A stretch of 64,000 nucleotides of DNA from Rhizobium sp. CC-YZS058 (GTDB taxonomy: Bacteria > Pseudomonadota > Alphaproteobacteria > Rhizobiales > Rhizobiaceae): positions 310,001 through 374,000 of the forward strand of contig NZ_JAYESJ010000003.1 of assembly GCF_034720595.1 (NCBI RefSeq), in the 5' to 3' direction. Each line of letters starts with the position of its first letter. Position 1 is the first letter of the stretch. The notes beneath the pieces were generated by a model. The model made no database searches. It was not told where the DNA came from and saw only the letters and a list, made by a program, of their open reading frames with translations. The translations under genes and the position numbers were made by a program. This document shows positions 3,052 to 7,689 of this stretch, in pieces.

Positions 3052-6000
3052 GTGTTCAGTTGCGTAATCATTGGCGAGCAGTGGCTCGTGGCCGAATGCG
3101 GCGAAATCCTCCTGAGGCGGGGCCACCGGATCGAGCAGGTTCTTTCCTCCAATCCGCGGCTGCAGGAATGGGCGCGTTCCCATGATCTCCCCGTTCGGGA
3201 CTGGGCGCGCAAGGCTGGTAACCCGCTGCCGGACACCGGCTTCGACTGGCTCTTCAGCATCTCCAACCTGCGGATCATTCCGGACGACATGGTTGCCCGC
3301 GCTCGGCAGGGCGCCATCAACTTTCACGATGGGCCATTGCCTTGGCTCGCCGGCCTGAACACGCCGTCCTGGGCCATCCTCGAAGGCCGCGAAGACCACG
3401 GCGTGACCTGGCATCGCATCGCCGGCGGCATTGACGAGGGCGGCATCTGCGCGCGCGCCGTTTTCCCGATCCAGCCCGACGACACGGCGTTCACCCTGAA
3501 CAGCCGCTGCTTCGAGGCGGGGATCCGCAGTTTCGCCGAGGTTGTCGACGGGATCGAGAGCGGCACGCTGGCCGATACGCCGCAGGATTTTTCCGAGCGC
3601 CGCTATTATGCGCGCGACCGCCGGCCGGACGCCGCAGGCATCCTCGATTTCGGCAAGCCTTCCGAGGAGTTGGACCGGCTCGTCCGGGCGCTCGATTTCG
3701 GGGTCGGCTATCGTAATCCGCTCGTTACGCCAAAGATCGTCACGCCGGGCGGTACCTACCGTGTCGTGCGGCTGGAGTGCGGGGAGCCGACCGTTCTCCC
3801 GCCCGGATCTGTGGCCTCGGTGACTGGCGCCCGTCTGACCGTCGCGGCTGCAGACCACCTGGTCACCCTGGAGCTTGCTGGCCTTGGCGGGAAGCTGCCG
3901 GCCGATCTTACCGCCGTGGTCAAGGCAGGCGACCGTCTTCCGGTGCTTTCCGAGGCCGATCGGTCCCGCATCACGGCCCTGATCGCCGATGCGGTCGCGG
4001 AGGAGGGACGGTTCCGTCGCAAGCTTCTCGATGCGCGCGACCTGACGCTCGCCGATTTCCGCGAGGCCGGCGAAAGGCGGGCGGTACGAACCCTTCCGCT
4101 GCGGTTTGCCGAGCGCGGGTCGGCGAGCGCACGCGCTGGAGCCGTGGCGGCGCTGCTGTTCCGCCTTTCCGGGGAGGGCGACTTCAGCCTCGCCTATTCC
4201 GATCCGGCCCTCGATGCCGTCGCCAGCGGCAGTGCCGGAACGCTCTCGTCCGAACTGCCCCTTCGCATGGTGTTGACGGCGGAGACCGCCGTCTCTGCGC
4301 TCGCATCGTCCCTGGAGGGTCATCTCGCCGACCTCGGTCGCGGCAAGTCCTATCCGGTCGATCTGCCATTGCGTCTGCCGGAGCTTTCCGAGAAAGCCTC
4401 GACGTCCACGCTCTCGGTCGGCCTGCGCGTCGGGCAGGCGCGGTCGGAGGAGGCGCTGCCGGTTGGCCGCATTCTCGAATTTGTGCTGTTGCCCCAGGAG
4501 GGCGGCGGGGACCATCTCGTCTATGATGCCACCCGTCTGTCCGACGAGAGTGCGCAGGCCTATGTCGACGCCCTGGCGGCGCTGTCCGCCTCGCTCCTCG
4601 CCAAGGACCAGCCGCTCGGCGATCTGCGGCTGATGACGGAGGACGACGAGCGGCGACTGCTGATCGAGTGGAACGCCTCGGCGCGTGACTATGACACCGC
4701 TGCCTGCGTGCACCACCTCTTCGAGCGGCAGGTGCGGCGCACCCCCGATGCCGTGGCGGTCGCCATGGGCAGCGACAGCCTCACCTATGCCGCGCTCGAT
4801 GCCCGGGCGGAGGAGATCGCCGAGGCGCTCGTCGATCTCGGCGCCGGACCGGATGCGATTGTCGGCCTCTATCTGTCCCGCTCGCCGGACATGGTGGCGG
4901 CCATGCTGGCGATCCACAAGGCCGGGGCCGCCTATCTCCCGCTCGATCCGAATTTTCCGGTCGATCGGCTGGCCTATATGCTGGAGGATAGCGGCGCGCG
5001 GATCGTCGTCACCGATCTCGACCATCGCCGCGCTCTGGCAGCCAAGGATGTGACGGCGCTTTGCGTCGACAGCCTGCCGCCGCGCTCGGAGGCGGTGCGC
5101 GCCGTCCGTCCCGCGGCCACTGCCGTCAATCTCGCCTATGTCATCTACACCTCGGGCTCCACCGGCCGGCCGAAGGGCGTGATGGTGGAACACCGCAATG
5201 CGGTCAATTTCTTCGCCGGCATGGACGACCGGATCGCAGTGCCGGAAGACCGGCAGCCTGTCTGGCTGGCGGTCACCAGCCTGTCCTTCGACATTTCCGT
5301 GCTCGAGCTTCTTTGGACGCTGACCCGCGGGTTCAAGGTTGTGATCTTCGAATCCGAGGCTTCGCGTCTGGTTGCCGAAGGCGAGATGTCCCGCAGCCGT
5401 GCGGCCGCGCGGGAAATGGATTTCGGCCTGTTCTTCTGGGGTGCGGACGACGCGAAGAGCGACGACAAATACAGCCTTCTTTTAAAGAGCGCGCAGTTTG
5501 CCGATACGCACGGCTTCGACTCGATCTGGGTGCCCGAGCGGCATTTCCACGCGTTCGGCGGCCCCTATCCGAACCCGGCCGTGGCCGCTGCCGCTCTGGC
5601 CGTGACCACGCGGACGCTGAAGATCCGCGCCGGAAGCTGCGTGCTACCGCTCCATCATCCGGCCCGCGTGGCGGAGGAATGGGCGATGATCGACAATCTG
5701 AGCGCCGGCCGCGTGGCGATCGCCTTCGCCTCCGGCTGGATGCCGGAAGACTTCATTCTGCGGCCGGAAAACGCCGTTCCCCGCAACAAGCAGGCGATGC
5801 TGCGCGACATCGATGTCGTCAAGCGCCTCTGGCGTGGCGAGGCGGTGGAGTTCGACCTTTCGCCGGACAAGAAGGTCGCCGTCACCACGCAGCCGCGCCC
5901 GGTGCAGGCGGAACTGCCGATCTGGCTCACCACCGCCGGCAATATCGAGACCTATCGCGAGGCCGGCAGGCTTGGGGCCAATATCCTGACCCACCTGCTC

Positions 6001-7689: not shown

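Follow-up and report, generated by a model that had tools for sequence, protein, structure and literature searches.

Initiation by a module in which a formyltransferase (FT) precedes an adenylation (A) domain and a peptidyl carrier protein (PCP) is known from LgrA of linear gramicidin synthesis, a nonribosomal peptide synthetase (NRPS) whose amino acid is valine. FT-A(Gly)-PCP starters that feed a polyketide synthase (PKS) were described for phthoxazolin (PtxE), oxazolomycin (OzmO) and conglobatin (CongA) (PMC5764310). Flavin monooxygenases inserted between motifs A4 and A5 of the A domain are found in the myxothiazol and melithiazol systems where, like the flavin monooxygenase of solanimycin, they hydroxylate the alpha carbon of a glycyl unit (PMC10204066). 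The two features are united in one starter NRPS of 1545 amino acids encoded at positions 3052..7689 (+ strand) of a 64,000-nucleotide stretch of Rhizobium sp. CC-YZS058, hereafter the window (contig NZ_JAYESJ010000003.1, positions 310,001 to 374,000). This FT-A(LLM)-carrier protein, in which LLM stands for luciferase-like monooxygenase, is real, well conserved and widespread, and its architecture combines known parts in a new way. A search of the open-licence literature, which gives a weak negative, found no characterised FT-A(LLM) protein, no characterised cluster with a known product that has this domain order and no NRPS/PKS pair in an exopolysaccharide (EPS) locus.

The reading frame opens with a GTG codon and has no internal stop. 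It codes for an FT domain with its C-terminal barrel and the triad N90-H92-D128 (3052..3906; Pfam, ArnA alignment, AlphaFold2 model, Foldseek), the C-terminal half (lobe) of a condensation domain that lacks the half bearing HHxxxDG (3943..4689; hhalign, model, Foldseek), the first part of an A domain with motifs A1-A4 (4690..5415; Pfam, motifs), an inserted luciferase-like flavin monooxygenase (5416..6486; NCBIfam, PDB match), the second part of the A domain with A5-A10 (6487..7341; Pfam, motifs, alignment) and a carrier domain with its Ser1475 (7384..7596; Pfam, motifs, alignment), all on the + strand. Pfam places the formyl transferase at residues 73-164, AMP-binding in two stretches (the best at 557-771) with Bac_luciferase (801-1057) between them, AMP-binding_C at 1344-1418 and PP-binding at 1448-1510. 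The insert, at about residues 789-1145, belongs to TIGR04020, the NCBIfam family of MupA/Atu3671 natural-product LLMs (459.8 bits over residues 791-1141, where the curated cut-off is 244.45; profile positions 1-340 of 341). Motif A3 lies at 699-709, and A4 (FDIS, 746) and A5 (NMYGPTET, 1224) are 478 residues apart. A preliminary description, drawn from the sequence alone, had proposed an NRPS that starts with an FT, has a monooxygenase within its A domain between A4 and A5 and then a carrier domain; the domain search bears this out, and the coordinates hold.

The same description knew of no protein with both FT and monooxygenase; that the combination is rare is ruled out by the 173 relatives obtained when a species-level genome collection was scanned with the NRPS protein. 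The domain order is a common one among Rhizobiales, Rhodobacterales and Myxococcota. In most of the 80 loci that were kept for analysis, the match covers almost the whole protein, and among 120 proteins listed the Pfam formyltransferase and luciferase domains occur together in all except P0048 and P0079. Samples of the class and of the order gave 7 positive genomes of 385 and 2 of 150, respectively; each count includes the window's own genome. Of 140 genomes from the phylum to which the Myxococcota locus L054 belongs, 9 match TIGR04020 with an E-value no higher than 1e-60; MtaG-like sequences were sought there and FT-type proteins were found instead in seven of the nine.

Conservation of catalytic residues was followed in an alignment of 200 sequences (the query, the 80 loci and 119 proteins). 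For the FT the preliminary description had named Asn72, His92 and Asp128. His92 and Asp128 stand; Asn72 is ruled out, the true Asn being N90, which in the segment INFHDG aligns with the N-x-H of ArnA. N72 is another Asn, conserved in 191 of the 200 sequences. N90, H92 and D128 read NHD in 194, the remaining six being L042, L054, L078 (truncated), P0048, P0079 and P0094. The AlphaFold2 model of residues 1-560 has a mean pLDDT of 91.5, and the 50 Foldseek matches listed for it all have the FT fold (ArnA, FMT and others; probability 1.00). As the matches listed had FT folds only, the segment that follows was modelled separately.

This segment (residues 298-546) is the second half of a condensation domain and had no place in the preliminary description. 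It aligns by hhalign with the condensation domain of a relative (93.6%, E 2e-7), its profile matches chains of McyB, Txo1/Txo2, PvdL and EntF, and the 50 matches listed for its model (pLDDT 91.8) are NRPS entries with condensation-type domains, as judged by their titles. Scanned alone against Pfam with hmmscan it gave no match up to E 0.1. Two of the nine Myxococcota genomes have a condensation domain in the position of the FT, with the motif HHLLMDG intact in one and PHIVLDG in the other. These are the C-A(monooxygenase)-carrier proteins L146 and L147, and a PKS of like type follows the latter. On the simplest reading an FT replaced the first half of a condensation domain, so that a module which had elongated or ended chains came to start them, a direction that we infer. 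If right, it would offer a natural case of an A(monooxygenase) module made into a chain starter, which bears on NRPS domain swapping.

The ten-letter code of the A domain, read jointly from its two parts, is DILQFGMIWK. It appears as DILQ[F/M/L/Y]GMIWK in 192 of the 200 aligned sequences, and the carrier Ser is kept in 198. It is one letter off DILQLGMIWK, which in a survey of A domains is shared by all four Gly domains with a MOX, according to the excerpt available (PMC12283262). An amino acid can thus be named by prediction: glycine is the likely substrate, given this near-identity. The insert finds its nearest solved relative in PuwE (PDB 6ket; 327.9 bits over residues 6-340 of 362). The preliminary description had spoken of an alpha-oxidised starter, for which the site of oxidation would be carried over by analogy from the myxothiazol, melithiazol and solanimycin enzymes. 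Another flavin monooxygenase, FbnE of fabrubactin, was proposed to make alpha-hydroxycarboxylates in the part of its description at hand (PMC12971057).

The divergent partner PKS that had been proposed is present, and adjoins the NRPS gene in all seven genomes searched whole. The window holds its first 931 codons (1..2794, - strand); the whole gene (L087:3273-9794) lies partly to the left of position 1, ends about 3.7 kb outside the window and codes for a KS-AT-KR-DH-carrier-TE protein of 2173 amino acids, TE being the thioesterase. An alignment of 68 PKSs, that of the window included, shows conservation of the active-site motifs, namely KS Cys/His, AT GHSMGE, KR, DH His/Asp, GGHSL of the carrier and G-x-S-G-G of the TE. 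The intergenic stretch between the two divergent genes (2795..3051) is a probable two-way promoter region. Of the 80 loci, 72 gave a PKS match with an E-value of at most 1e-20.

With PtxE, OzmO and CongA the window NRPS shares an FT triad, a glycine code and a PKS partner, that is, a formylation-A(Gly)-carrier module starting a PKS, although glycine is known here from the code only. It differs in its inserted monooxygenase and its EPS locus, neither of which is mentioned for those proteins in the excerpts of their description. Their SGGKDS ATP-pyrophosphatase cyclodehydratase partner (OzmP, PtxD and CongE) was not found here: all six frames of 90 sources (each a locus with its flanks) are free of the SGGKDS motif, and the window NRPS is therefore not filed with this type. 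LgrA, the best whole-protein match in the PDB, likewise initiates by FT-A-PCP, but is without a monooxygenase, takes a different amino acid and has an NRPS rather than a PKS downstream. PuwE is a stand-alone protein of a lipopeptide pathway, unlike the insert. MtaG and MelG have in common with the window NRPS, as far as their partial description extends, the flavin monooxygenase between A4 and A5 and the glycine substrate. Their modules, of the order C-A(MOx)-PCP-TE, end a chain whereas the window module starts one, its FT standing where the first half of a condensation domain would be. The complete upstream condensation domain of those modules is reduced here to its C-lobe, and the TE is found not on the NRPS, which ends after the carrier, but on the partner PKS.

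Two further systems come close. The plasmid pCP157_02 of Paracoccus marcusii CP157 has a PKS-GT2-FT-A(LLM) gene set. In this locus (L163, 10442-15033) the FT is annotated as a separate gene directly upstream of the A(LLM)-carrier gene, with a slight overlap, which may be either a natural split or a frameshift. The set is very probably the cluster of this plasmid that was listed, in the excerpt available, as an uncharacterised HSR-NRPS-PKS hybrid (PMC8273931); the main text of that paper has no word beginning 'polysaccharide' or 'exopolysaccharide'. Fmt and Ox domains meet in one proposed pathway legend for calyxamide/keramamide-type clusters of Entotheonella, whose products are long peptides; the part of the source at hand does not place the Ox in an A domain or a PKS module (PMC12858407). 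Phaeobacter inhibens T5 has PKS and NRPS genes two tags apart (Inhi_1972 and Inhi_1974) according to an excerpt of PMC4062626, and these may be such a pair.

The surroundings of the NRPS gene, on which the preliminary description was silent, include polysaccharide genes in most genomes. In whole-genome searches with Pfam PF13440, 27 of 31 genomes have a Wzx-type flippase within 45 kb (1.6 expected) and 22 have one within 20 kb (0.7 expected), where the expected values assume an even spread along each genome and 24 of the 31 genomes were chosen by us from loci with long flanks whose neighbours had already been seen. For the seven less biased genomes, the window's own and six from the order and class samples, the flippase is within 45 kb in four and polysaccharide genes stand beside the pair in six, G488 being the exception. 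The flippase is missed in G117, G302, G488 and G544; despite this, G302 has an operon with Wzz, Wzy and glycosyltransferases, and in G117 genes for a Wzz/kinase-like protein, a GT4 and a sugar epimerase are found no more than about 10 kb from the pair. At least two polysaccharide-family genes were found in 58 of 62 long-flank loci versus 1 of 40 random 20-kb windows, a contrast that is partly circular because the models derive from families found beside the NRPS, and in which the loci are longer than the control windows; 18 of the 80 loci, with short flanks, had been dropped. The loci with fewer than two such genes are L002, L007, L043 and L065. Ten genes were scanned over L065, L068 and L043: the neighbours at L068 are housekeeping genes, including those of ferrochelatase and PdxA, those at L065 code for a nucleotidyltransferase and an apiosidase-like protein, and L043 has one GT2 gene.

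The order PKS-GT2-NRPS is found in 56 of 59 same-strand loci, mostly from Rhodobacteraceae; the PKS frame ends in ATGA or GTGA in 49 of the 59, and the GT2 frame does so in 40. The Aminobacter sp. MSH1 plasmid pUSP1, as annotated by NCBI, has the PKS and NRPS genes together with those for a 4'-phosphopantetheinyl transferase (PPTase), a family 9 glycoside hydrolase (GH9), an O-antigen ligase, an export protein, a flippase and glycosyltransferases. Its PKS, NRPS, GH9, Wzy, export, Wzx, GT2 and GT4 proteins are 46-59% identical to those of the window locus, and its Wzz/kinase 35%. The pair stands among polysaccharide genes in six of nine plasmid regions (Aminobacter, Ruegeria conchae, Ruegeria SCSIO 43209, Shinella zoogloeoides, Paracoccus liaowanqingii and P. 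marcusii); of the other three, that of Aliiroseovarius M344 is without them, the Streptomyces protein has no FT match and the Neorhizobium record is unannotated.

In a tree of the A/LLM/carrier part (36 rows) the window sequence groups with those of Rhizobiales. A clade of 26 rows from Alphaproteobacteria and Myxococcota (support 96/98) includes it and most EPS-linked rows; the EPS-linked L063 falls outside, and L064, L149 and L153, which are inside, showed no polysaccharide gene in the stretch covered.

In the window's genome a series of genes for a PKS, a Wzy-like protein, a polysaccharide export protein, a Wzz/kinase and a GT4 glycosyltransferase runs leftward on the PKS strand, followed beyond GT4, on the opposite strand, by GT2 and Wzx flippase genes. 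The PKS stop and the Wzy-like start overlap as ATGA. Coordinates in L086 are 7097-8470 for Wzx, 10802-12424 for Wzz plus kinase, 12503-13798 for Poly_export and 13867-15276 for Wzy_C. The locus thus has the flippase, Wzy/ligase, export and chain-length/kinase proteins of a Wzx/Wzy-type locus. To the right of the NRPS gene, a PPTase gene (7517..8413, +) more likely starts at an in-frame ATG at 7724. It is followed by genes for a putative mannosyltransferase (PF11051; 8376..9383, -), the GH9 enzyme (9546..12365, +; its pUSP1 homologue is 54% identical), a GT4 glycosyltransferase (12496..13839, -), a WecG/TagA/CpsF glycosyltransferase (13846..14631, -) and a GT2 glycosyltransferase (14793..16181, +). 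A diguanylate cyclase (GGDEF; 17535..19355, +) is a possible regulator of the locus.

The pairing of NRPS and PKS with slime genes across relatives suggests that their product decorates an EPS, and we judge it marginally probable that the two-enzyme line provides the polymer with a small acyl (or amino-hydroxy acid) unit. From the domains, the conserved catalytic residues, the NRPS-PKS pairing and the genetic linkage to polysaccharide genes we infer a substrate, a site and order of oxidation, a number of extensions and an attachment to the polymer. The NRPS would load glycine on its carrier, as its code indicates; the FT domain, with its triad and fold, would formylate it from formyltetrahydrofolate; and the inserted flavin monooxygenase would oxidise the glycyl alpha carbon, as its family suggests and, for the site, by analogy. 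The N-formyl group could protect alpha-hydroxyglycine from collapse. The partner PKS would accept this starter, add one extender unit and carry out reduction and perhaps dehydration, before its TE releases or transfers the acyl product. Neighbouring glycosyltransferases and the Wzx/Wzy/Wzz/export proteins would build and export the polysaccharide that bears it. The fuller proposal, that in Alphaproteobacteria and Myxococcota the line is built into the EPS pathway and places a formylated, oxidised glycine-derived acyl group on the repeat unit instead of making a free product, is put forward tentatively, with its chances a little short of even.

Several observations weigh against a product destined for EPS. 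The locus has no initiating sugar-phosphate transferase: the three PF02397 genes of the genome are all on contig C1, not on C3, which carries the locus (Ruegeria conchae, Shinella zoogloeoides and Paracoccus liaowanqingii do have one annotated in their loci). No acyltransferase for attaching the product was identified, and at 1e-6 the window locus gives no match to the glycosyltransferase encoded between the PKS and NRPS genes in Rhodobacteraceae. Eight of the 80 loci, some of which lie on short contigs (L005, L006, L008, L012, L049, L064, L065 and L078), yielded no PKS, and the AT motif IAAHS points to no nameable extender unit. Pairs standing without EPS genes, which include Aliiroseovarius and Rhodopirellula examples (G488, Aliiroseovarius M344 and L068 showed no polysaccharide gene), mean that the product can exist without an EPS locus. 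For this reason about a quarter of the weight stays with an unlikely but serious alternative, a free secreted metabolite (signal, chelator or antibiotic) whose adjacency to EPS genes would come from a shared attached life, co-regulation or co-travel on plasmids. The listing of the pCP157_02 cluster as a hybrid, in a paper whose main text is silent on polysaccharides, agrees with it. The GT2 gene inside the PKS-NRPS row and the overlap of PKS and wzy in the window's genome indicate a linkage tighter than shared regulation needs, and the gathering of most EPS-linked rows in one clade also argues against a free metabolite, notwithstanding the three members without a polysaccharide gene. A siderophore was considered and rejected, as Pfam assigned no chelator family to any gene scanned next to the pair of the window.

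The chemistry of the starter also admits other readings. In myxothiazol and melithiazol synthesis hydroxylation is followed by cleavage of the carbinolamide, as the excerpts of PMC10204066 have it, and MOX is described in those of PMC12283262 as a domain that cleaves the glycine backbone. With an identical insertion site and a near-identical A code, the formylglycyl unit of the window NRPS might likewise be hydroxylated and collapse, with loss of formamide, to leave a glyoxylyl thioester as the true PKS starter. We hold this to be rather unlikely, since conserving an FT only to discard its formyl group every time would be wasteful, and solanimycin B retains its alpha-hydroxyglycine (PMC10204066, in excerpt). 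Hydroxylation of the glycine nitrogen instead, to an N-formyl-N-hydroxyglycyl (hydroxamate, metal-binding) starter or an oxime, is less probable still. The available portion of the necroxime account proposes conversion of a glycine primer to an oxime via OXY, DH and MT domains, and the partner PKS does have a DH after its KR; however, membership of the necroxime OXY in TIGR04020 could not be established, the A4-A5 insertions described in the excerpts act on the alpha carbon, and no iron-uptake family is among the Pfam matches of the scanned window and left-flank genes. A plain oxazole starter made from formyl-glycine, of the kind known from oxazolomycin and phthoxazolin, follows the same F-A(Gly)-PCP plus PKS logic in the excerpted description, but is very improbable: it was rejected because the SGGKDS motif of the cyclodehydratase is missing from the 90 sources searched, and here a monooxygenase is added and the PKS has its own AT, KR, DH and TE.

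Other traits of the family concern its variation and mobility. Contig C3 (381,966 bases) has a RepC-family replication gene at 61 kb, so that a repABC megaplasmid is the probable site of the locus; relatives in Aminobacter, Shinella, Ruegeria and Paracoccus have their loci on plasmids too. GyrA of the window's organism, a member of Rhizobiaceae, is 91-92% identical to those of Rhizobium sp. Leaf384 and Leaf371. The NRPS of the latter (L003; GyrA 92%) is only 53% identical, which hints at replacement by horizontal transfer or at fast divergence. A Streptomyces sp. NBC_01343 plasmid (L158, 10588-16382) codes for an A(LLM) NRPS that matches from residue 519 onward only, with an adjoining flavin reductase gene and LysW/LysX-annotated genes nearby. 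P0033, P0038 and P0080 (about 2640-2690 amino acids) have a second NRPS module after FT-A(LLM)-T, the sequences of the first two having been inspected. After the PPTase gene of L040 come two conserved proteins without a Pfam match (17513-18460 and 18457-20994), with equivalents in L013; SGNH-hydrolase-like by eye (GHSL, DxxH), they are possible polymer deacylases or acyltransferases.

The link to EPS is the part of these findings most worth following. If true, a set of the cryptic NRPS/PKS clusters mined from roseobacters and rhizobia would be polysaccharide genes, thiotemplate chemistry would decorate a biofilm polysaccharide, and bacterial surface polymers would bear an undescribed chemical group.

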